NCBI GenBank assembly: GCA_002868945.1
Contig: PKTX01000027.1
Coordinates: 1 to 64,000 of the forward strand
Reading direction: 5' to 3'
Length of the DNA: 64,000 bases
Source of the DNA: Desulfobulbaceae bacterium
Lineage (GTDB): Bacteria > Desulfobacterota > Desulfobulbia > Desulfobulbales > SURF-16
Of this stretch, positions 14,968 to 41,606 are shown piece after piece. The notes beneath the pieces were generated by a model. The model saw only the letters and a list, made by a program, of their open reading frames with translations, was not told where the DNA came from and searched no databases. Every line of letters starts with the position of its first letter. Within the stretch, counting starts at the first letter, position 1. A program made the translations under genes and the position numbers.

Positions 14968-15615
14968 CTAGCTGCGCTCCATATAGTCGCCAAGCAGCTC
15001 ACGGTATTTCCCCTTGGCCTCTACAATAAGCTCGCATACCTCGCGTACCGCCCCCTGGCCGCCGTTAAAGCGCGAGGTAAAATCCACCACCTCCTTGACC
15101 TCGGTGACGGCATCAGCGACAGTAACGGCCAAACCAACCCGGCCCAGCAGGGCCAGATCAAGCCAATCGTCACCCATGTAGGCCACCTGGTCGGCCTGCA
15201 GATCCAGTTCGGCAATGAGGCCGACAAAGGCCTCCACCTTGTTGCGGCGCCCCTGGAAGAGATGCTCGATCTTCAGGTCCTGACAGCGCCGCTCCAGGGC
15301 CCGGGAGGTGCGGGCCGTGATAATACCCACCTCAACCCCGACCTTGCGCAACAGGGTGAGACCAAAGCCGTCCCTGACATGAAAGGTCTTCAATTCAATG
15401 CCCTCATCGCTGTAGGTGATGGAGCCGTCGGTGAGCACACCGTCCACATCAAGCAGCAGCAGCTTGATCCCGGCGGCCTTGGCCAGGCAATTCTTCCAGG
15501 CATAGCCGCGCGTCGCGGCGCTGCGGGCTGCCGCCTTGTCGCGCAGGGCCTGGGTAAAGGCGCAGTCACCGGCATAGGGCCCATCAGTGGGGAGCGGGCA
15601 GTTTTCATCAGCCAT
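14968..15615 (-). CDS. kdsC: 3-deoxy-D-manno-octulosonate 8-phosphate phosphatase KdsC
   Basis: HAD phosphatase that removes phosphate from KDO-8-P. Motif I is LLLLDVDGVLTDG (nucleophile Asp), motif II IITARTS and motif III/IV YMGDDWLDLALL, the KdsC order without a cap domain. With the start at 15615 (MADENCPLP) it is 215 aa, carrying roughly 45 residues before the catalytic core, longer than most KdsC proteins. A later start is possible. It overlaps the end of kdsA by 8 bp, which implies translational coupling of consecutive steps in KDO synthesis. Confidence 0.9.
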   Translation of the reverse strand: MADENCPLPTDGPYAGDCAFTQALRDKAAARSAATRGYAWKNCLAKAAGIKLLLLDVDGVLTDGSITYSDEGIELKTFHVRDGFGLTLLRKVGVEVGIITARTSRALERRCQDLKIEHLFQGRRNKVEAFVGLIAELDLQADQVAYMGDDWLDLALLGRVGLAVTVADAVTEVKEVVDFTSRFNGGQGAVREVCELIVEAKGKYRELLGDYMERS

Positions 15616-16426
15616 TGACCACCTCATGAATCTGCTGCAGGGTGCGTAAGAGGGACTCCACCTCGCCCAGAGGCATGGAGTTGGGGCCGTCGCAGAGGGC
15701 CTTGTCCGGCTGCGGATGAATCTCCATGAAGAGACCGTCAATACCGGCCGCCACCGCGGCCCGGGTCAGGGGTGGAATAAACTGGCGCTGACCGCCGGAA
15801 CTGCCGCCGGCACCGCCGGGCAGCTGCACCGAATGGGTGGCGTCATAGATCACCGGACAACCCAGGGACCGCATCACCGGCAAGGCCCGCATATCCACCA
15901 CCAGGTTGTTATAGCCATACATGATGCCGCGCTCGGTGAGCATGATCTGCCCGTTGCCGCTGTCGCGCACCTTGCTGACGACATTTTCCATATCCCAGGG
16001 CGACAGGAACTGGCCCTTTTTGATACTGAGGGGCTTGCCGGTGCGGGCCGCCGCCACCAGCAGATCGGTCTGTCGGCAGAGAAAGGCGGGAATCTGGATA
16101 ACATCAAGCACCTCGGCGGCGGCAGCGGCTTGACCCGGTTCATGGATATCGGAAATAACCGGCACCTGGTACTCCTCCCTGACGCGCGCCAACAGCTCCA
16201 GGCCCCGTTTCAGGCCCGGCCCCCGAAAGGATGTCAGAGAGGTACGGTTGGCCTTGTCAAAGGAGGCCTTGAAGATATACGGCATGCCCAGCCGGCCGGT
16301 GATCTCCTTCAGGCCGGCCACGGTCTCCAGGACCACCTCCTCGGACTCGATAACGCAGGGACCGGCCATGAGGATGAGAGGACGGCCCGGTCCCACCTTT
16401 ATTTTCTCGGCAATAGTGACTTCCAT
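15608..16426 (-). CDS. kdsA: 3-deoxy-8-phosphooctulonate synthase KdsA
   Basis: Condenses phosphoenolpyruvate with arabinose-5-phosphate to KDO-8-P for lipid A core synthesis. The 272-aa barrel shows LILMAGPCVIESEE, FKASFDKANRTS, SDIHEP, IQIPAFLCRQTDLL, KKGQFLSPWDM and MEIHPQPDKALCDGPNS, all KdsA signatures. The cysteine in AGPCVIE fits a metal-dependent form. It is the first gene of kdsA-kdsC-lptC and lies downstream of pyrG in the same direction, the usual order in many Gram-negatives, but 500 bp of repeat and possible RNA gene separate them here. Confidence 0.96.
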   Translation of the reverse strand: MEVTIAEKIKVGPGRPLILMAGPCVIESEEVVLETVAGLKEITGRLGMPYIFKASFDKANRTSLTSFRGPGLKRGLELLARVREEYQVPVISDIHEPGQAAAAAEVLDVIQIPAFLCRQTDLLVAAARTGKPLSIKKGQFLSPWDMENVVSKVRDSGNGQIMLTERGIMYGYNNLVVDMRALPVMRSLGCPVIYDATHSVQLPGGAGGSSGGQRQFIPPLTRAAVAAGIDGLFMEIHPQPDKALCDGPNSMPLGEVESLLRTLQQIHEVVNG

Positions 16427-16461
16427 AGATGACTCGCTGCCCCTTTACGGGGCTCTATTAA

Positions 16462-16560
16462 AAATTCAACTTTCTGAGTTGGATAACTACTCGATATGAA
16501 AAGCCTTATAACCCGTTTCAAACTTGTACTTCCACGAGAATGCAGAATTCAGGAGTCAGC
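16462..16560 (+). repeat. Dispersed ~100-nt intergenic element (copy 2)
   Basis: Homologous by eye to 46868-46960 and to the minus strand of 670-755: AATTCAACTTTCTGAGTTGG, then GATAACTACTCGATATG, AAAAGCCTTATA, and the end AGAATTCAGGAGTCAG. It separates kdsA from pyrG. Confidence 0.6.
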
Positions 16561-20909: not shown

Positions 20910-21694
20910 GAGATACAACCATTATCCTGCTGCTGGTCCTGCTGCTGAGCGGCTGCGCCACGCGGGACAGGGCCATCACCACGCCGGCCAAAAAACAGGT
21001 GGCCACCCCCGGCAGATACGAAACCACGCAGAGCAAGGTGCCGCCGACCCAACGCCCCTATGTCATCAAGGGCAAGACCTACTATCCGCTGCCCTACGCC
21101 GAGGGTTTCGAGCAGCGCGGCATTGCCTCCTGGTACGGCAAGCCCTTTCACGGCAGAAAGACCTCAAACGGCGAGACCTACAACATGTACAGCCGCACCG
21201 CCGCCCACAAAACCCTGCCCATGAACACACCGGTGCTGGTCAAGAATCTCGATAACGGTCGGGAGATGGTGGTGCGTATCAATGACCGCGGCCCCTTTGT
21301 CCGGGGCCGCGTTATCGACATGAGTTACACCGGCGCCAAGGAGCTCGGCATGATCGACAAGGGCACGGCCCGGGTGTACATCAGCGCCCTGGGTGAGGCG
21401 GTGACCGTCCAGGAGGAGGGGCAAAAGGTCAAGCGCTTCCTGCCCCATGAGGATTTCAGCCGCGGCAACTTCTATGTGCAGATCGGCTCCTTTACCAACC
21501 GGGATAATGCCCTGCGCCTTCGCACAAAGATGGAGAACCAGGGCCACCAGGTGGCTGTCCAGGTCTATGACCGGGGTGACGCCCTCTTCCACCGGGTGCG
21601 GATCAAGGCAGGCCTTGAACTGTCCAGGGCCGAAGAGGTGCTCGAGGATTTCACGGAAATGGGCTACAGCGGCGCCTTTATTATCGCCCAGTAG
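20906..21694 (+). CDS. rlpA: RlpA family septal lipoprotein with SPOR domain
   Basis: RlpA is an outer-membrane lipoprotein that in Pseudomonas cleaves denuded peptidoglycan during cell separation. This 262-aa copy has a signal and lipobox (LLLVLLLSGCAT), a double-psi beta-barrel (GIASWYGKPFHGRKTSNGE to INDRGPFVRGRVIDMS, with the conserved His and Asp) and a C-terminal SPOR domain (NFYVQIGSFTNRDNALRL), which binds glycans at the septum. The start is TTG at 20906, supported by GGAGGAA 6 nt upstream, and overlaps the cytochrome stop (TTGA). It ends convergently with a histidine kinase gene, overlapping by 14 bp. Confidence 0.9.
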   Translation: MRDTTIILLLVLLLSGCATRDRAITTPAKKQVATPGRYETTQSKVPPTQRPYVIKGKTYYPLPYAEGFEQRGIASWYGKPFHGRKTSNGETYNMYSRTAAHKTLPMNTPVLVKNLDNGREMVVRINDRGPFVRGRVIDMSYTGAKELGMIDKGTARVYISALGEAVTVQEEGQKVKRFLPHEDFSRGNFYVQIGSFTNRDNALRLRTKMENQGHQVAVQVYDRGDALFHRVRIKAGLELSRAEEVLEDFTEMGYSGAFIIAQ

Positions 21695-24251
21695 CACTGC
21701 CCTTCAAGGCTTTTTTAACGGCCTCGCCCAGCTGCACCATGCTGTAGGGTTTGCGGATAAACTCACCGGCGCCGAGGCGCTGGGCCTCCCTGACATTGCT
21801 GTTTTCCGAAAAACCGCTGGCAATGACAGCCTTCTGGCCGGGATGGCGCCGGACCATGGCCGCATAGGTCTGGCAGCCATCCATGCCGGAGCCCATAATC
21901 ATATCCAGCACCACAAGATCAACGGCCTGCTCGGCCAGATAGTCCAGGGCCTCCTCACCTGAGGCCACGGCATGGCATTGATAGTTGAGATGATCGAGAA
22001 AACGGCAGGCAATGTCGCGCTGGTTGGCCTGATCATCCACCACCAGGATTTTTTCACGCCGCCCCTGCAACTCCTCAACAGAGGCCTCCTGTTCCTCCAC
22101 CGTTGCCTCCTCATGACTGGCCGGAAAGAAAAGGCTAAAGGTCGTACCGTGATCGCCGCTGATCACGCTGACGCGGCCATTATGATCCTGCATGGTGTTC
22201 CAGACCACGGCCAGGCCCAGACCGGTACCGCTGCGGCCCATCTCCTTTTTGGTATAAAAGGGTTCAAAGATATGCTCCAGATCCGCCTCGGCAATGCCGG
22301 GGCCACTGTCACTCACCCGCAGCACGGCATAGTCGCCGGCAGGCAGTCCCTGTTGCTCGGCCTCCTGCTCGGTGATGGTCACATTGGCGGTGGCAATGGT
22401 GATCACCCCCGGACCGACCAGGGCCTCAAAACCGTTGGTTATCAGGTTCATCAAGCATTTCTTCACATGCACTGCGGAACAGGAGATAGTGACCAGGTCG
22501 GGCGCCAGCTCCGTGACACAGGAGACCAGGCCATGGGCCGCCGCCACGCTCAGATGTTCGGGTGACTGCAGATATTCGTCAATGAGGCTGTTGAGATTGG
22601 CGGTTGTCTTGACACAGGCAACGCCGCGGGCCACGGTGAGCAGATCCGCCACCACGGCGGCGGCCTGCTTGCCCGACTGCTGGATCATCTCAATGGCGGG
22701 TCGCACCTCACTCTCCTCGGGCAGTTGCAGGAGGAGGAGATCCGGATAGCTGACCACGCCGGAGAGGATATTGTTGAGATCATGGGCCACGCCGCCGGCC
22801 AGCATGCCGAGGGCCTCCATTTTGCGGGCCTTTGTCCGGCGCTCTCTGAGTTCCTTTTTCTCCTGCTCGACACGGCGCTGCTCGGTCTTGTCATTCAAGG
22901 TAATGACCATCCTGTCGTCAAGCAGGGTGTAGGCAAACTCCACCTCCTTGACGGAACCGTCCTTGCAGACCACACCGCGCTGCGCCATGGGGCCGGAATG
23001 CTTGGCACTACGCAGCTCCTCCAGGCGGTGTGTCCACCTGTCGTGAATGGCCTGCCTGGTGGCATCCTCGGGATAGGCCCTGGCAAACCAGGCATCAATG
23101 GTGGGAATATCGGCCGTGGTGTAGCCGTAATCCGCCACAAACTTTTCATTGAGAAATTCAACGGCACCGCTTTCCACATTGACCATGGCAATGGGCAGGT
23201 GGGCATCGTTGATAAAACGACTGAAAAGCTTTTGACCCTCGGCCACCTTTTTCTCGGTCTCCTCCCTTTTGCGCTCCTCCTCAAGACGCAGACGGGCCCG
23301 GAACAGAAAAAAGGCGTAAAGGGTAAGCAGTCCCACAAAGAGGAGAAAAAGGAGAATCCACCAGCGGCCGAACTGCCGGATAGAGGCCAGGGCCTGCTGT
23401 TCCGGGCTGGCCACGGCTATGGCCCAGCCGTTGTGGGGCAACTGCACCTTATGAAAGACGGCATGGGTCCGCAGGCGCCGCGTTTTGCCGTCCTGCCTGT
23501 AGTCCTGGGAATAGACAAGATGGCCGTCGCCGGCCTTCAGCACCTCCCCGGCCATGGCGGCCACCTGCGAACAGTGTGATTGTTCGGATCCGTCGTCCTT
23601 CAGATGATGTGGTGCCGAACAGTAAATCTCGCTGCCCTGCTCATCAAAAAGCCACACCGAACCCTGGGTGCCGACGGTAATATTGGCCAGATATTTGCCG
23701 GCCACCACCTCAAAGGGCAGCAGAACGCTCAAGGAACCGGCAAAGACACCCTGGTCAAAGATCGGCACGGCATAGGCCACCGCCTTATAGCCCTGTACGG
23801 ACATAAACAGGGAACTGACCACCGGCTCGCGGCTTTCGGCAAGCAGGCGATTATGCTCCTGGCCGGAGACGTCCCTGCCGATAACCCCCTCCTGCAGAGG
23901 AGCACTGTAAAGAATACGGCCATCGGCATCGACGCGGCTGACAGCACTGATGGTCCGGGTATTGGCCTGATAAAATTCGTCCAGGAGCTGCTTGCCCCTC
24001 TCATCAAGGCGAATGATCCCCTGATAGTGGGCCACGGACTCTATCAATTTTTCGTGAAAAAGGAAGAACTCCTCGATACCATGGGCGGCCTGTCGGACCA
24101 GGAGGGCCTGCTGCGCATTGAGATTGGCAACGGTGTTGCGCCGCACCATTTTGTAGGGCAGATAAAAAAACCAGCCGGCAAGGGCACCCAGAAGGGCAAG
24201 AACGACCAAGGACCGCAACAACTGCGGCAAATTGTAATCCAGCTTTTTCAA
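21681..24251 (-). CDS. Hybrid sensor histidine kinase with periplasmic Cache domain
   Basis: An 856-aa membrane protein. The first helix (residues ~12-34) and a second at about 292-315 flank a ~250-aa periplasmic sensor with the look of a double Cache domain. A PAS segment follows (IAMVNVESGAVEFLN region), then HisKA with GMLAGGVAHDLNN (His490), HATPase with GPGIAEADLEHIFEPFYTKK and GTGLGLAVV, and a C-terminal receiver with VVLDMIMG (Asp783) and IRKPYS. It senses an unknown periplasmic ligand. There is no adjacent response regulator with an output domain. It is divergent from the HD-GYP gene. Confidence 0.9.
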   Translation of the reverse strand: MKKLDYNLPQLLRSLVVLALLGALAGWFFYLPYKMVRRNTVANLNAQQALLVRQAAHGIEEFFLFHEKLIESVAHYQGIIRLDERGKQLLDEFYQANTRTISAVSRVDADGRILYSAPLQEGVIGRDVSGQEHNRLLAESREPVVSSLFMSVQGYKAVAYAVPIFDQGVFAGSLSVLLPFEVVAGKYLANITVGTQGSVWLFDEQGSEIYCSAPHHLKDDGSEQSHCSQVAAMAGEVLKAGDGHLVYSQDYRQDGKTRRLRTHAVFHKVQLPHNGWAIAVASPEQQALASIRQFGRWWILLFLLFVGLLTLYAFFLFRARLRLEEERKREETEKKVAEGQKLFSRFINDAHLPIAMVNVESGAVEFLNEKFVADYGYTTADIPTIDAWFARAYPEDATRQAIHDRWTHRLEELRSAKHSGPMAQRGVVCKDGSVKEVEFAYTLLDDRMVITLNDKTEQRRVEQEKKELRERRTKARKMEALGMLAGGVAHDLNNILSGVVSYPDLLLLQLPEESEVRPAIEMIQQSGKQAAAVVADLLTVARGVACVKTTANLNSLIDEYLQSPEHLSVAAAHGLVSCVTELAPDLVTISCSAVHVKKCLMNLITNGFEALVGPGVITIATANVTITEQEAEQQGLPAGDYAVLRVSDSGPGIAEADLEHIFEPFYTKKEMGRSGTGLGLAVVWNTMQDHNGRVSVISGDHGTTFSLFFPASHEEATVEEQEASVEELQGRREKILVVDDQANQRDIACRFLDHLNYQCHAVASGEEALDYLAEQAVDLVVLDMIMGSGMDGCQTYAAMVRRHPGQKAVIASGFSENSNVREAQRLGAGEFIRKPYSMVQLGEAVKKALKGSATGR

Positions 24252-24338
24252 TACGTACTCTCCCCCAAGATTACCCTGAAATTACGCTCAAATTTCTCCA
24301 TTGTAATGAAGAACCCCAACAAATGCCAAAACTAAATC

Positions 24339-25345
24339 GGGGTCAGGCTTGACATTTTGACTTTCGCACTGATACACAAAAGGTATGGCCCGTAAACCGC
24401 GTATCCACTACCATGGCGCTGCTTATCACGTTATTCTGCGGGGTAACGGCGGCCAGGACATCTTTTTCAGCAAAGCCGACCGGAGCCGTTTTTATTTTCT
24501 TCTCCAGGAGGGTGTGGAGAAATACGGCCATCGGATCCATGGTCATTGCCTGATGACAAACCACGTCCACCTGGTCATCCAGGTGAGCGAGGTGCCGCTG
24601 TCACGCATCATGCATAATATCGGCTTCCGCTACACCAACTACCTGAACCGACGCTTGCGCAGAAAGGGCCACATCTTCCAGGGCCGCTACAAGGCCTTAC
24701 TGGTTGATGCCGACAGTTACCTGCTGGAACTGATTCGTTATATCCACTGTAACCCGGTGCGGGCTCGACTTGTCCAATCGCCCGAGCATTATCCGTGGAG
24801 CAGCCACCGCACCTACCTGGGGCGGGATGATGTTGGCTGGCTTACCACCGATCTGGTCCTTTCGCAATTTGCCGCGCAGCAAAAAAGAGCCCGATCGCGC
24901 TACGCTGATTTCGTTACCCAGGGGATTGATGAAAAACACCGGGTCGAGTTTCATCAAGGCTCCTATCAAGGCCGCATCCTGGGGGATGACCACTTTGGGG
25001 AAAAAAGCCTGGCCAGGGCGGCGGAACCACTGCAACGGCCGCTGCGCCTCGAACAGATTGTTAAAGCGGTCTGCGACGTTTACGGCATCAGCACCGACCT
25101 TCTGCGTGAACCCGGCAAACGACAACCAGGTGCCAAGGCCAGGGCTGTGGCCGCCTACCTGATCCAGAATGCCGATAACCTCACCCTGTCGGAGCTGGCG
25201 CACTATGTAGGCCGGGATCTTGCCGGCCTGAGCCGTGCCGCCGGCAGGCTCCCCCATCGTCTTACCAGGGATGCGGGCCTGGCGCGCAAACTTGCCACCA
25301 TCCAACAACAACTTGAGCAAATGTCAAAATGTCAAGCCTGACCCC
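24339..25345 (+). mobile_element. REP-associated transposase element with perfect 23-bp inverted ends
   Basis: The element is bounded by identical inverted ends, 24339-24361 (starting GGGGTCAGGCTTGAC) and 25323-25345 (its exact reverse complement). Both flanks read CTAAATC (24332-24338 and 25350-25356), inside a longer near-duplication (CAAAACTAAATC and CCAAGCTAAATC), consistent with a target duplication or repair scar. One transposase gene fills it. Further copies of the right end occur at 30989-31011 and 31848-31869. It interrupts the 5' end of the HD-GYP gene. Confidence 0.85.
24385..25341 (+). CDS. REP-associated tyrosine (Y1/HUH) transposase
   Basis: A 318-aa member of the Y1 transposase superfamily related to IS200/IS605 TnpA. 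It begins MARKPRIHYHGAAYHVILRG, carries the HUH motif in HCLMTNHVHLVIQ (residues ~54-66), and the candidate tyrosine region FRYTNYLNRRLRRKGHIFQG and LIRYIHCNPVRA typical of RAYTs. A C-terminal extension with a helix-turn-helix look (TLSELAHYVGRDLAGLSRA) occurs in longer RAYTs. Its stop lies inside the right inverted end and its last codons overlap the start of the HD-GYP gene in another frame. The frame is intact, so it may be active. Confidence 0.9.
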   Translation: MARKPRIHYHGAAYHVILRGNGGQDIFFSKADRSRFYFLLQEGVEKYGHRIHGHCLMTNHVHLVIQVSEVPLSRIMHNIGFRYTNYLNRRLRRKGHIFQGRYKALLVDADSYLLELIRYIHCNPVRARLVQSPEHYPWSSHRTYLGRDDVGWLTTDLVLSQFAAQQKRARSRYADFVTQGIDEKHRVEFHQGSYQGRILGDDHFGEKSLARAAEPLQRPLRLEQIVKAVCDVYGISTDLLREPGKRQPGAKARAVAAYLIQNADNLTLSELAHYVGRDLAGLSRAAGRLPHRLTRDAGLARKLATIQQQLEQMSKCQA

Positions 25346-27533
25346 CAAGCTAAATCAGGTGGACCTTACCTTTTTGCTGCTGCGTGTCTTCAGCCTGGTG
25401 GGCGGTATTGCCTGGCTGCTCCTGGTGCCGCTTCCCCCCCGGGAGGAGGCCATCCTCATCAAGGCCCTGATCGCCTTCGCCGTTTACAGCAGCCTCTGCT
25501 ATGCGATCATCTTTCTCCGACCGGCCACCCTGCGCAAGGTCTACCTGGGCTCACTCTTTCTCGACCTCATCTTTCTGAGCAGCCTGGTGCACACGGAGAC
25601 CAGTTTTGCCAACAGCTTCTTCCTGGGCTACTACCTGCTTATCTGCCTGCACACCATCTACTTCGGCCTGGGCTTCGGCTTGCTGGTCGCCACCCTTTCC
25701 GCCATCTGCTACCTGGGCATTGTCATGCCCTTGCTGCCCACCATTGCCTGGACCGACCTGGCCATGCGCATCGGCTTTTTCTATCTGATCATGGTACCGG
25801 TTGGTTTACTCTCGGAAAAGGTGAAGCGCGACAAGGAAAAGGTGGAACACTTCAACCACACCCTGGCCGTCAAGGTGGTACAGCGCACCGAAAAGATCAG
25901 CAACCTCCTGGACCGGGAGCGCTATCTCCGGGAAATCCTTGATACGGTGGCCCATATCAACAAACTGCTCATCACCGTCCCCAATATCACCGCCCTGCTG
26001 GAAAGCTCCTGCGCCCGCTTTGTCCGGCATGGCCATTACGGTTTCAGCTGGATCGGCCTTCTGCAGGCAAACAAGGTCCGCACCATCTACACCTCGGAGC
26101 CGGACACCACCACCCTGGCAAAGCCGCCCTTTATCGTTGACGACACAAACCACGCCTTCTACCCCACGACTGCGGCCCGGGCCATCCGCGACAACCGCAT
26201 GGTGCTGGCCGACAAAAGCAGGGCGGAGCAAAATCCGACCCTGTGGCGCGACCCGACCACCATTGAAGGCCATCAGGCGGTGATCAGCCTGCCCCTGCGC
26301 CCCAATCAGGCCGCCGAGCCCTTTGGTGTCCTGACCATCTATACATGGCGCAAGGAGGGCTTTGAGCCGGAAGAAAAAGAGATGCTCGACGAGCTGGCAG
26401 GCGACATCGGCTTTGCCATCGAATCCTTCAGACACAAGGAATCCGTGGCCAAGCTCACCGCCGAACGCACCGCCAATTATGAAGAGACCATTTTTTCCTT
26501 TGTCGACATGATCGAACAGCGCGACACCTATACCGCGGGTCACACCGAGCGCGTCGCCCACTACTGCCAACTTATTGCCAGGGAAATGGGTCTCCCCTTT
26601 GCCCAGGTCAAGACCCTCTACAAGGCCGCCACCCTGCACGATATCGGCAAAATCGCCACGCCCGACTCGGTGCTGCTGAAGCCCGGCAACCTCACCAAGC
26701 TGGACTATGACCTCATCAAGATCCATCCCTTTGCCGGCTATGAGATGCTCTCCAACATCGCCATGTACAAAGACCTGGCCGCCATCATCCTGCACCACCA
26801 TGAACGACACGACGGCACAGGTTATCCGGACGGCCTCAAGGGAGACGATATCCCCCTGCTTTCCCGCATCCTCTCCGTGGGCGACGCCTTTGACGCCATT
26901 ACCACCAACCGTATCTACAAGGCAAGAAAGGAGATACCCGAGGCCCTGGCCGAACTAGCCGCCATGAGCGGCAGCCAGTTTCATCCCGATGTTGTCACGG
27001 CAGCGGTCAAGGTCCTGGCCGATGTCAGCATCTCCAACAGTATCAACCAGCTGCCCAAATCAAAGTTGGAGAGAAAGAGATTCTCCTACTTCTTCAACGA
27101 CAAGCTCACCGGCCTCTATAACGAGGACTATCTGAAGATCACCCTCAACAACCTTGATCTCAACCAATACACCTGCCTCAACATGATCCATATGCAGAAT
27201 GTGCCGGAGTACAACAAGAAACACGGCTGGGACAGGGGCAACCAGCTTTTCAGAGAGTTTGCCGCCGAGTTGCAGGCCACCTTTCCCCATGCCCTGGCCT
27301 TCCGGGCCTACGGCAATGACTTTGCCCTTATCTCCACGGAGCACATGGAGGTGGAGGCCCCGACACTAAACGCCTTTGCCGCTATTCTCGACACGGAAAT
27401 CACCGTTGAGGTCAGCCACATTGATCTGTCCGCGGAAAAGTCCTACAGCATCGACAAGCTGGAGAAGCTTGAGATCCTGGCGGTTGACGCCGAAGACGCC
27501 GCTTGGAACACAAGCCATGCCAGCCACTATTGA
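25329..27533 (+). CDS. Membrane GAF/HD-GYP cyclic-di-GMP phosphodiesterase with degenerate GGDEF
   Basis: A 734-aa protein: about six N-terminal membrane helices (residues ~12-160), a coiled linker, a GAF domain (~210-370), HD-GYP and a C-terminal GGDEF-like domain. The HD-GYP signatures ATLHDIGKIATPD and HHHERHDGTGYPDG are intact, so c-di-GMP hydrolysis is expected. In the last domain the active loop reads AYGNDFAL instead of GGDEF, so it is probably inactive as a cyclase. The present ATG (25329) lies inside the transposon's right end. Across the element, codons ATG CCA AAA CTA AAT C at 24323 would join AG GTG to give MPKLNQV, the likely original start. Confidence 0.88.
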   Translation: MSSLTPKLNQVDLTFLLLRVFSLVGGIAWLLLVPLPPREEAILIKALIAFAVYSSLCYAIIFLRPATLRKVYLGSLFLDLIFLSSLVHTETSFANSFFLGYYLLICLHTIYFGLGFGLLVATLSAICYLGIVMPLLPTIAWTDLAMRIGFFYLIMVPVGLLSEKVKRDKEKVEHFNHTLAVKVVQRTEKISNLLDRERYLREILDTVAHINKLLITVPNITALLESSCARFVRHGHYGFSWIGLLQANKVRTIYTSEPDTTTLAKPPFIVDDTNHAFYPTTAARAIRDNRMVLADKSRAEQNPTLWRDPTTIEGHQAVISLPLRPNQAAEPFGVLTIYTWRKEGFEPEEKEMLDELAGDIGFAIESFRHKESVAKLTAERTANYEETIFSFVDMIEQRDTYTAGHTERVAHYCQLIAREMGLPFAQVKTLYKAATLHDIGKIATPDSVLLKPGNLTKLDYDLIKIHPFAGYEMLSNIAMYKDLAAIILHHHERHDGTGYPDGLKGDDIPLLSRILSVGDAFDAITTNRIYKARKEIPEALAELAAMSGSQFHPDVVTAAVKVLADVSISNSINQLPKSKLERKRFSYFFNDKLTGLYNEDYLKITLNNLDLNQYTCLNMIHMQNVPEYNKKHGWDRGNQLFREFAAELQATFPHALAFRAYGNDFALISTEHMEVEAPTLNAFAAILDTEITVEVSHIDLSAEKSYSIDKLEKLEILAVDAEDAAWNTSHASHY

Positions 27534-30899: not shown

Positions 30900-31011
30900 C
30901 TTGAAGGACTCCACCCTGCTGGTGCGGGTTACTCGCCACGCCGCCCTGGCGAGCAGAATTGCCACCATCCCCAGCGCCTTGAGCAAATGTCAAAATGTCA
31001 AGCCTGACCCC
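30900..31011 (+). pseudogene. Remnant of a REP-associated transposase 3' end
   Basis: A translated stretch LVRVTRHAALASRIATI corresponds to PHRLTRDAGLARKLATI near the end of the intact transposase at 24385-25341. It runs into a perfect copy of the element's 23-bp right end (30989-31011). The rest of that ancestor is missing. The remaining 30707-31025 sequence shows no gene. Confidence 0.7.
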
Positions 31012-31834: not shown

Positions 31835-31869
31835 GCCTTGAGCCAATGTCAAAATGTCAAGCCTGACCC
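31835..31869 (+). repeat. Solo transposase end that truncates the Fic fragment
   Basis: 22 of the 23 bases of the RAYT element's right end (31848-31869), preceded by GCCTTGAGC as at 30976-30984. On the minus strand it follows directly after the last Fic-like codons. Confidence 0.7.
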
Positions 31870-32273
31870 ACGCCCTTACAGTTTTGATCGACTCGAAACT
31901 CGCCAGGGGTTTTATTCTCCCCCCGAACCGAGTTGAGCAGGATTTTATGGATCTCACGGATAAGCGCCAGGCGAATGGGATACTCCCGCAAATGTTCCGC
32001 CGCCTGAAAAAGCGCCAGCCGGTAGTTTGATATTTCCTGAATATCCTTGTACTTTTCCCCTTCTTTGATCAACCCCGCTTCCTGTTCCAATACCTCATCA
32101 ACGGTGGCCTGGGTTCCCTCGATTCTGGAAGAAAGCACGGCCTCTCGGGTTGTCAATGGTGACAGCATTACCGCCGGATTAGGAATGCCCTGCAACAATC
32201 CATCATAGTGGGCAAGCTCGGCATTGGCATCACCCACCAGCCCAAAGAGCATTTGGTAGTCCAGATTTTGCAT
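31857..32273 (-). pseudogene. 5' fragment of a Fic family protein
   Basis: The translation contains the Fic N-terminal helical domain (GIPNPAVMLSPLTTREAV, SSRIEGTQATVDEVLEQEAG, ALIREIHKILLNSVRGE, KTPGEFRVDQN). It then runs into unrelated codons where a transposon end begins (about 31881), so the catalytic HPFxxGNGRxxR part is lost. The N-terminus also looks short for this family, and the ATG sits at the very edge of the last CRISPR repeat with no ribosome-binding site. It therefore seems truncated at both ends and is unlikely to be functional. Confidence 0.8.
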
Positions 32274-35200
32274 TTCTAAGCTGCCTGTGCGGCAGTGAAC
32301 TGAGGCAAGGCCGGTTTACATGGAGCGTAAGTTTTCTAAGCTGCCTGTGCGGCAGTGAACACGTATTGCCAATAGTCTGGTCTCCGTCATCATTTCTAAG
32401 CTGCCTGTGCGGCAGTGAACTCACTCGCCCTGCTCAGTCCGTGCCTTGACCATTTCTAAGCTGCCTGTGCGGCAGTGAACTGGTGACGCCGGATGGTGCC
32501 AGGGTGGTGGAGATTTCTAAGCTGCCTGTGCGGCAGTGAACTACTACGCCCTGGATTATGTCTTCCATCTTTTTTTCTAAGCTGCCTGTGCGGCAGTGAA
32601 CAGTCTGGGCCGTGTAGATATTGTTTTTCTTCATTTCTAAGCTGCCTGTGCGGCAGTGAACTGAATTATGTCTACCGTTCTCGCGATATCAAATTTCTAA
32701 GCTGCCTGTGCGGCAGTGAACGCCGTGGTGGAGGAGTTGTGTAACATTCTGGATTTCTAAGCTGCCTGTGCGGCAGTGAACATGTTTTAGCCACATAGTA
32801 TGTTGATCCTGCATTTCTAAGCTGCCTGTGCGGCAGTGAACGCGACAGTGCAGAAACCGAAATTGCTTGATCATTTCTAAGCTGCCTGTGCGGCAGTGAA
32901 CGTTGACGTGGGAGTCAAAGAGTTCTTCCGCCATTTCTAAGCTGCCTGTGCGGCAGTGAACGTCTCAGCAAGAAACCGGTGCCGCTGCTGACATTTCTAA
33001 GCTGCCTGTGCGGCAGTGAACCACAAAGGGTGAAGAGAGTCGTTTTCCACAGATTTCTAAGCTGCCTGTGCGGCAGTGAACGGGTGTAGAGACTAAAACC
33101 AAGTACACCGTGGATTTCTAAGCTGCCTGTGCGGCAGTGAACATAAAGGTATCTTTGGCATGCTGGATCGTCGGTTTCTAAGCTGCCTGTGCGGCAGTGA
33201 ACTTATCTTACAATTACCAAACTCTCCTTTATATTTTCTAAGCTGCCTGTGCGGCAGTGAACGATATGCCGGACTCCTGTAGACTCATCCCTCGTTTCTA
33301 AGCTGCCTGTGCGGCAGTGAACTTGAATACTTCTTCGCTTTATCACTTAATCTCTTTCTAAGCTGCCTGTGCGGCAGTGAACACACGCCCCGCATTGGGC
33401 TGAAAGAGCCTCGGTTTTCTAAGCTGCCTGTGCGGCAGTGAACGCCAGCACTGGCTCATCGGCTGTCTGCTCTATTTTCTAAGCTGCCTGTGCGGCAGTG
33501 AACGATATCTACTTTGTCCAGATGCCTGGCCTCAATTTCTAAGCTGCCTGTGCGGCAGTGAACTTATAGAGCGCATCAATATTTTTATTTATCGATTTCT
33601 AAGCTGCCTGTGCGGCAGTGAACGTGGAAGAGCAGAAGTTGGTAAACGAAAAGCGTTTCTAAGCTGCCTGTGCGGCAGTGAACCAAGGTCTTTACCGTTT
33701 TTTCGATGTTCACTCTTTCTAAGCTGCCTGTGCGGCAGTGAACGAGGTGGAGAAAGAGGTGGCTGTCGGTTTTAATTTCTAAGCTGCCTGTGCGGCAGTG
33801 AACCCTCTCCTTGTCCGTGTCCTTCCACAGCCCCATTTCTAAGCTGCCTGTGCGGCAGTGAACGTGACCACCTGGCAGCGCAAGCTGCGCGCCGCTTTCT
33901 AAGCTGCCTGTGCGGCAGTGAACATATTGCAAGACCGGGTGTGCAAGCAGGTTCATTTCTAAGCTGCCTGTGCGGCAGTGAACTACCCATACCCTGTTTT
34001 TGCTGACCAACTCTTTTTCTAAGCTGCCTGTGCGGCAGTGAACGCCGTGGAACTCGTTGGTACCGGCTTTTCTCAATTTCTAAGCTGCCTGTGCGGCAGT
34101 GAACTACCTGGCCCAGCGGCCGAAAAGCTTTTCCCATTTCTAAGCTGCCTGTGCGGCAGTGAACTTATTTCCCACTCTATCGCCTCTTTTTTTGTCGTTT
34201 CTAAGCTGCCTGTGCGGCAGTGAACGTATTCTCCATCCTGGCAAACTCCATCATCGGTTTCTAAGCTGCCTGTGCGGCAGTGAACATGTTTTTAACTGTT
34301 ACAAGAGCTATGTTTCATTTCTAAGCTGCCTGTGCGGCAGTGAACTAAATCTAAAATAAGATGTTCAAGGCACAAAATTTCTAAGCTGCCTGTGCGGCAG
34401 TGAACACACGTTGTATGGCCCCCTGCCTATCCAATTTTTTCTAAGCTGCCTGTGCGGCAGTGAACGATCGAGGCGCCGTTGTGATTGTCCTGGCCAATTT
34501 CTAAGCTGCCTGTGCGGCAGTGAACGGTCATATAGATTTTTTGAGAGGAATATAATCTTTCTAAGCTGCCTGTGCGGCAGTGAACAGACAATCCACATAG
34601 TAGAAAACTACACCCATTTTCTAAGCTGCCTGTGCGGCAGTGAACAATCAACATTAACCCTTACCTGCTCTTGATAATTTCTAAGCTGCCTGTGCGGCAG
34701 TGAACGGTATCGTGCCGCAGCAGGATGCACGCCTTGCTTTCTAAGCTGCCTGTGCGGCAGTGAACTGGTGTTTAGTGGTCATGCTTGGTCTCCTGGTTTT
34801 CTAAGCTGCCTGTGCGGCAGTGAACTTGTTGGTGTTGGTCTTCTGCTTCTTTTTGTGTTTCTAAGCTGCCTGTGCGGCAGTGAACGATGACAATTCCGCG
34901 GCGGTCATAGAGGTTAATTTCTAAGCTGCCTGTGCGGCAGTGAACTTGCCCGTTGGGCCTCCACCCATCGTCATGAATTTCTAAGCTGCCTGTGCGGCAG
35001 TGAACAAAAGGCCACCGGAACGGCAGACGGATGATGATTTCTAAGCTGCCTGTGCGGCAGTGAACGACGGCCAGCACCTGGTCGCGGCTCATGTTGCTTT
35101 CTAAGCTGCCTGTGCGGCAGTGAACAGGTTGTCTTCTTTTTATGCCTTAATTGTGGATTTCTAAGCTGCCTGTGCGGCAGTGAACGTACCCCGCTGCATG

Positions 35201-36447
35201 CCGTGTTGTCGCTCGATTTTCTAAGCTGCCTGTGCGGCAGTGAACGGGGCGGCTCAACACCTCCGGCAACCGGGGCTTTTCTAAGCTGCCTGTGCGGCAG
35301 TGAACGGCCCAACCCCGGAACTCTGCGCCCTCGACAATTTCTAAGCTGCCTGTGCGGCAGTGAACTCATGCCGGACCTTGACCACCAGCGAATCCGATTT
35401 CTAAGCTGCCTGTGCGGCAGTGAACTTCATGGGAAAACGAGCAGTGCGGGATCAAGACTTTCTAAGCTGCCTGTGCGGCAGTGAACCCCTGCCATAGAGG
35501 ACGTCATCGACCTGTTGTTTTCTAAGCTGCCTGTGCGGCAGTGAACTTTGAGCCATGGTGGTGCCTCCTTGAAAGATTTTTCTAAGCTGCCTGTGCGGCA
35601 GTGAACGACAGAGCTCTGCGAGGGAGCGTTTTTTTTCATTTCTAAGCTGCCTGTGCGGCAGTGAACTTCGCTGGCCACGGCCAGGCGGACCTTGTCGATT
35701 TCTAAGCTGCCTGTGCGGCAGTGAACGCAGCGGCCCAAGCGCAACCCGCCAGGGTGTTTTTCTAAGCTGCCTGTGCGGCAGTGAACGAGAGTTACCGGGT
35801 GGTTACCAAGGGCCGTAATTTCTAAGCTGCCTGTGCGGCAGTGAACACTCAAAGAGCGCCTGCGCCAGTGCCGGCCAGTTTCTAAGCTGCCTGTGCGGCA
35901 GTGAACACCTGCTTTTCCTTTGCGGCTATCCGTATTGTTTTCTAAGCTGCCTGTGCGGCAGTGAACAATAGTAAGCCGACCCATAAAATTCACCAATCTT
36001 TCTAAGCTGCCTGTGCGGCAGTGAACCATCATTGTTGGTGCCATATCCATACGTAAAATTTCTAAGCTGCCTGTGCGGCAGTGAACATTTGCATATCGCC
36101 GCCCTGTTTTCTCTTGGTTTTCTAAGCTGCCTGTGCGGCAGTGAACTGAGGAATTTATAGCTAAACAAGGCATAAGGATTTCTAAGCTGCCTGTGCGGCA
36201 GTGAACGTTTGTAAACTGCGGAGATGTTGTTATCGTCCATTTCTAAGCTGCCTGTGCGGCAGTGAACTGAAAGAAGCACATTTGTTAAATCAACCAAAAT
36301 TTCTAAGCTGCCTGTGCGGCAGTGAACTTCCATAGAAGAGGCAATTGAGGATATCAGGGTTTCTAAGCTGCCTGTGCGGCAGTGAACGGCCAGTGGCAGC
36401 GCACCCATGGCGGCAAAGTTTTCTAAGCTGCCTGTGCGGCAGTGAAC
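32273..36447 (-). CRISPR. Type I-F CRISPR array, 70 repeats and 69 spacers
   Basis: The 28-bp repeat, read on the minus strand, starts GTTCACTGCCGCACAGG and ends CAGCTTAGAAA, the canonical I-F (Ypest) repeat with hairpin CTGCC-GCACA-GGCAG. First and last repeats on plus are 32273-32300 and 36420-36447. Sixty-two spacers are 32 bp and seven are 33 bp, deduced from phase shifts at 32514, 33115, 33416, 34077, 34198, 35459 and 36240. All repeats look identical, even the leader-distal one. Leader and transcription start lie at the high-coordinate end. No duplicated spacer was noticed. Confidence 0.98.
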
Positions 36448-41530: not shown

Positions 41531-41606
41531 AAGCACTGCCGCACAGGCAGCTTAGAAAATAATCAGTTTATTTTTTATCTTCACTGCCGCACAGGCAGCT
41601 TACTCT
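41531..41606 (+). ncRNA. CreR-like mini-CRISPR regulatory RNA (two degenerate repeats, 20-nt spacer)
   Basis: Repeat 1 (41531-41558) keeps the hairpin and the full 5'-handle CTTAGAAA but has AAG in place of GTT at its start. Repeat 2 (41579-41606) keeps the hairpin but ends CTTACTCT. The spacer (41559-41578, ATAATCAGTTTATTTTTTAT) is 20 nt instead of 32. Cas6f cutting would give a 48-nt RNA: handle 8, guide 20, hairpin 20. The guide matches the csy upstream site next to a CC PAM. The RNA is antisense to the end of cas2-3, whose stop codon lies in repeat 2. Confidence 0.85.

Follow-up and report, generated by a model that had tools for sequence, protein, structure and literature searches.

TIRtrons and their TIRYT genes were described by Di Nocera et al. 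(2013; PMC3733652). In the part of that paper covered here, a tyrosine transposase gene lies between long terminal inverted repeats (TIRs) with the motif GGGGWSAS, and the end also occurs in dispersed solo, paired and mini copies. The TnpA-REP (RAYT) subclass 2.1.2 of Quentin et al. (2018; PMC6006769) has a Y1 core with Y-x3-NP, a Bac_DnaA_C domain and GGGG[AT][CG]A[CG] ends, and lacks a REP. Mobile repeats that encode the ends of host proteins are also known: the portions covered of PMC3733652 and PMC2759123 report REP, RPE and enterobacterial RU elements inside genes; flanking open reading frames (ORFs) take stop codons from GTAG REPs (PMC3733652), and RU-2 supplies N-terminal residues, with RU N-terminal fusions (PMC2759123). 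Here we analyse a 64,000-nucleotide stretch of a Desulfobulbaceae bacterium genome (contig PKTX01000027.1, positions 1 to 64,000; hereafter the window), in which a 1,007-bp element at 24339-25345 adjoins the gene of a predicted HD-GYP phosphodiesterase and very probably provided it with a new start codon.

The element carries one intact ORF (24385..25341, plus strand) for a tyrosine (Y1/HUH) transposase of 318 residues, identified with Pfam, NCBIfam and motif searches. Its core matches Y1_Tnp (Pfam, 2.1e-13) and contains the motifs HVH and Y119-x3-NP, and residues 223-278 form a C-terminal Bac_DnaA_C domain (PF08299, 6e-9). The NCBIfam model REP_Tyr_transpos (NF047646) gives 68.4 bits, under its curated cut-off of 80, and the NCBIfam IS200 model 16.4 bits, under its cut-off of 55. 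An HUH motif and a catalytic tyrosine are thus combined with GGGGWSAS ends (here GGGGTCAG) that are unrelated to GTAG REPs and belong to a dispersed end family. On this sequence evidence we class the element as a TIRtron, with an IS200-like tyrosine transposase bearing a DnaA-type C-terminal domain. It shares with the TIRtrons of PMC3733652, as far as that source was covered, both the organization of the element and the solo, paired and mini copies of its end. The likeness to TnpA-REP subclass 2.1.2 is one of domains and ends; the present case differs in that end copies occur in one species, whereas the syntenic sites of three congeners lack them. HUH and Y1 chemistry, by homology, and the lack of target duplication in the relatives' elements recall IS200/IS605, whereas the long perfect inverted ends, the longer protein and the DnaA-like domain set the element apart from that family. 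About 30 related transposases, in the same order and outside it, are each carried by an element of ∼ 1.0 kb that has GGGGTCAGGC at its ends; the inner parts of the ends vary from element to element. In the left flanks of two of these related TIRtrons (L112 and L122), tandem arrays of partial GGGGTCAGG ends lie immediately outside the element.

A probable element-borne start of the HD-GYP gene

Both ends of the element carry GGGGTCAG in inverted orientation around the transposase ORF. The left end (LE, 24339..24367, plus strand, GGGGTCAGGCTTGACATTTTGACTTTCGC) and the right end (RE, 25317..25345, plus strand, GCAAATGTCAAAATGTCAAGCCTGACCCC) form a pair of 29 nt with 93% identity, perfect over the outer 23 nt. 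Because the bases beyond GGGG are unrelated between copies, we place the boundaries near 24339 and 25345; at the LE the outer limit is taken to be the GGGG itself. The RE is read in two frames: in one it encodes the stop of the transposase (GCC TGA), in another ATG TCA AGC CTG ACC CC, that is, MSSLTP. An earlier sequence-only reading had proposed that a transposase insertion replaced the start of the HD-GYP gene and supplied a new ATG from its right inverted end, with the two genes overlapping by 13 bp. The overlap and the position of the ATG are confirmed in the sequence, and the replacement itself is supported by the anatomy of the element and by two further genes (yejA and ygiQ, below), where MSSLTP stands against native starts in congeners.

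The HD-GYP gene (25329..27533, plus strand) encodes 734 residues with a membrane N-terminal region, a GAF domain, an HD-GYP domain and a degenerate GGDEF domain. Its ORF begins MSSLTPKLNQVD. The ATG of MSSLTP is the first possible start, since no in-frame ATG, GTG or TTG lies between the last stop and it. The catalytic motifs are intact (HDIGK near residue 437 and HHE...GYP, here HHERHDGTGYP, at 490-500; HD_5, 1.3e-41), and the protein is 71% identical over its length to that of the congener G001. The HD and GYP motifs mark it as a predicted cyclic-di-GMP phosphodiesterase.

Comparison with orthologues locates the break. The ATG and the codons that follow it (25329..25345, plus strand) come from the element, and a 7-bp junction, CAAGCTA (25346..25352, plus strand), separates the element end from the first codon homologous to the orthologues, N9 (AAT, 25353). 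In all 25 orthologues (L083-L107), [N/S]EVDL, replaced by GRIDL in two of them, is preceded by a head of 14-15 residues, typically M.F...QWKKV..AT, and 24 of the 25 have an ATG at -14 or -15. The gene in the window reads MSSLTPKL in place of this conserved head and then continues NQVDL. Judged from this alignment, the native start and the conserved 14-15 codons are gone, and the suggestion of the sequence-only reading that the N-terminus had changed only slightly is not supported. The head motif QW..V also occurs in three shorter proteins that share only the membrane input module (L108, L110 and L111); the lost head may therefore matter for that module.

We consider it very probable that the RE of the TIRtron abuts codon 16 of the HD-GYP gene (orthologue numbering) and that the present start of this gene is an ATG contained in the inverted end. 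The property is a general one of this end, which, read outwards, spells AAA ATG TCA AGC CTG ACC CC and offers an ATG followed by a stop-free frame. Where such an end arrives in the opening codons of a gene and in the right phase, the frame of its ATG would run on into the gene, and the native start, left on the far side, would decay or be lost. At the HD-GYP gene, the arrival of the element, or recombination between copies of it, would have removed the head; the TIR ATG would serve as start of a product beginning MSSLTP and then KLNQVDL, and the protein would still be functional. The sequence-only reading had also suggested that the insertion parted the gene from its earlier promoter by 1 kb and that its expression may depend on the transposase transcript. 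A consensus search of 24230-25400 gave no sigma-70-like site on the plus strand; reinitiation at the HD-GYP gene after the overlapping transposase stop is a possible route of expression.

The same end at yejA and ygiQ

A search of the genome for the end, allowing at most 3 mismatches, returned 23 copies, compared with 0 for a reversed control; pairs and mini-elements also occur. Among 21 outward copies, 3 open long ORFs: the HD-GYP gene and two genes on contig C44, which we take, from the families and gene context, to be yejA and ygiQ. The locus presumably comprises yejE, yejB, yejA, an HD-like gene, leuC, leuD, a glycosyltransferase-like gene and ygiQ. Both C44 genes begin with the TIR-encoded start, yejA as MSSLTP-ITLFFVFLSLSSVAHGAHG and ygiQ as MSSLTPS-KFLATCAADLRERGW.

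The gene order of this locus is the same in all three congeners (G001, G002 and G003), where the end is absent, and the native starts can be read there. For yejA, MSSLTP-ITLFFVF here compares with MKTCFLFSF-ITLLVSF in G001. For ygiQ, MSSLTPS-KFLATC compares with MADNRK-SFLATSS in G001 and G002 and with MAEDRK-SFLATSS in G003. By comparison with these empty sites, start replacement is shown for two of the three genes. The insert at ygiQ is a mini-element of ∼ 123 bp, the far end of which carries GGGGTCAGG; at yejA one end only is recognizable. No transposase gene is adjacent to either gene, and start donation therefore does not need one. Ahead of the TIR ATG, the ribosome-binding potential is modest, at -3.0 kcal/mol (yejA) and -4.9 kcal/mol (ygiQ) against a background mean of -2.8. 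We considered whether the two C44 ends bound a composite transposon with the genes between them, but this stretch is the native locus, syntenic in every congener, and the idea was dropped.

If the end is placed at random in the sequence of this genome, a frame of at least 500 residues within 20 codons of a start arises with a probability of 0.00125 per copy, which amounts to ∼ 0.03 expected cases in 21 copies compared with the 3 seen; this null leaves aside the purging of insertions inside genes. If the denominator is restricted to survivable sites, which we estimate at about a tenth of the genome, the expectation rises to a few tenths. The search for further MSSLTP-headed genes was made post hoc, after the HD-GYP case had suggested it. 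In other genomes, 26 end copies close to transposase genes were read, and no long gene-like frame starts from any of them.

Alternative origins of the junction

Several observations weigh against an end-borne start at the HD-GYP gene. Upstream of 25329 the ribosome-binding site is weak and no stronger than background (-1.9 kcal/mol; background mean -2.8). The protein deviates at 11 otherwise invariant columns, compared with 0-8 in the other full orthologues, and constraint may have relaxed somewhat, although most of the changes are conservative. A syntenic empty site for the HD-GYP gene itself was not found: its G001 neighbours (LonB-like and Mut7-C-like) lie on contig C38 here, with no HD-GYP remnant. 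Finally, the genome is a draft of 83 contigs in which several end copies lie near contig ends, and a local misassembly is possible.

Within the favoured reading, the route by which the element came to lie between its present flanks can take more than one form. To the left, a divergent hybrid histidine kinase gene (21681..24251, minus strand; dCache, HisKA, HATPase and receiver domains) faces away from the element. In none of the sampled relatives for which the surroundings of the HD-GYP gene were read is the kinase gene adjacent to it; the two flanks may thus at no time have been joined. In G001 the kinase adjoins a gene that matches window 46.05-46.8 kb, and the HD-GYP gene is on another contig; here ∼ 22 kb (24.3-46.05 kb: TIRtron, HD-GYP, MFS, Fic and CRISPR-Cas genes) separate genes that are adjacent in G001. 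The two genes may have been joined by a rearrangement that also placed these ∼ 22 kb here relative to G001, or they may have been neighbours earlier; the state before insertion may have been two copies that recombined, or a site already rearranged. The first of these, in which one copy upstream of the kinase and another in the HD-GYP gene recombined and joined both loci, is a reasonable candidate to which we give somewhat less than an even chance. It would account for the separate contigs and the intervening ∼ 22 kb, and two more RE fragments lie at 31011 and 31870 of the window. However, the genome contains no second full copy closely related to the transposase (the next best has 46% identity) and no detached HD-GYP head beside other end copies, and the imperfect repeat that flanks the element (below) would have to be due to chance.

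It is unlikely that the HD-GYP gene is a decaying fragment whose MSSLTP frame is accidental and unused. The weak ribosome-binding site, the lack of a plus-strand promoter candidate and the 11 changes at otherwise invariant positions would fit such a state. However, 734 codons are open, the catalytic motifs are intact, the identity to G001 extends over the length of the protein, and two other intact genes begin with the identical TIR start.

The sequence-only reading had instead joined the two flanks without the element. They do spell ATG CCA AAA CTA AAT CAG GTG GAC in an open frame, and a gene that once began MPKLNQVD would imply insertion between contiguous flanks with a target duplication of ∼ 12-13 bp. 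An imperfect 13-bp repeat, CCAAAACTAAATC (24326..24338, plus strand) and CCCAAGCTAAATC (25344..25356, plus strand), abuts both ends of the element and matches at 11 of 13 positions. Its probability by chance is about 0.002-0.015 (0.002 by shuffling; 0.009 by cross-pairing the flanks of 30 elements, 8/870; 0.015 by exact-word cross-pairing), and no comparable abutting duplication exists at 29 related elements, where target duplication is not seen as a family trait; the joined flanks are in this respect misleading. The orthologues' conserved head starts 14-15 codons earlier than the proposed start. The left-flank ATG (24323) shares bases with the -35-like TTGGCA in a promoter-like site for the divergent kinase gene (24300..24329, minus strand; TTGGCA-18-TACAAT). 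The site, read from 24329 to 24300, has 10/12 matches; shuffles of the region average 0.6, which makes it weak alone, and its position suits the kinase gene. No ribosome-binding site precedes the left-flank ATG (-1.0 kcal/mol), and that of the kinase TTG start is strong (-8.8 kcal/mol). Relatives free of the element, which the sequence-only reading had named as its own point of refutation, do start the HD-GYP gene differently, and the kinase and HD-GYP genes are not neighbours in those sampled for gene order. MPKLNQVD as the ancestral start is thus not supported by these comparisons. Insertion between contiguous flanks would be tenable only if the head had been lost beforehand and the insertion followed as a second step, and we regard it as slightly less plausible still than decay of the gene.

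An assembly chimera at the repeated end, to which the repetition of end copies and the closeness of several to contig ends might point, is very improbable: the perfect repeat is only ∼ 27 bp, the interior of the element is unique, and yejA and ygiQ, within a syntenic locus, show the same kind of in-frame fusion that replaces the head.

Dispersed copies and a proposed portable start

Further copies of the end were seen in the window and elsewhere in the genome. An RE fragment lies at 30945-31011 of the window, and a solo RE at 31848-31870 overlaps the 3' end of a Fic_N ORF (31857-32273, minus strand) of only 138 residues; it probably truncated a Fic gene. On contig C67 of the same genome (G000, 2064-2124; L199), two LEs stand back to back and form a 61-bp near-perfect palindrome that resembles a REP doublet. 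Two mini-elements of ∼ 150 bp on C14 (G000, 15240-15389 and 16369-16520; L200) consist of LE and RE without a transposase, and at G000 C27:70299-70943 a transposase-like match lies within an unusually long open frame of 755 codons. No empty sites were found for two related full TIRtrons (G034 and G254). The remainder of the ∼ 22 kb includes a Type I-F CRISPR array of 70 repeats (window 32273-36447), followed by cas6f, cas7f, cas5f, cas8f, cas2-3 and cas1 (∼ 37.57-45.86 kb). A lone partial I-F repeat (model positions 4-28) lies outside the array on the opposite strand, between cas8f and cas3 (41534-41558, plus strand).

The TIRtron family and repeat-encoded protein ends are already known; a portable start codon in a TIRtron end is a new variation on them. 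In contrast to the REP, RPE and RU cases, the inverted end of a transposon here provides three unrelated genes with a start codon and an identical hexapeptide, MSSLTP, and the native starts are visible in relatives. In the part of PMC3733652 covered here, replacement of a start by an end-borne ATG is not reported and the term 'start codon' is absent from the text, and a literature search for the peptide string MSSLTP gave no match. We put forward, tentatively and with more doubt than belief, that the TIRtron end acts as a portable translation start, that landings in early codons are survivable, and that the family swaps N-termini (HD-GYP, YejA and YgiQ) genome-wide. If this were true, the portable start would leave a set of MSSLTP-headed proteins.

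The literature covered leaves it open whether REP/TIR-class transposases continue to mobilize their own repeats. Sites occupied by the end here but vacant in three congeners, together with three in-frame host fusions, offer concrete loci for testing mobility. They suggest one way for a mobile repeat to alter protein N-termini while the genes survive, a change that homology-based start annotation would miss or mis-call.
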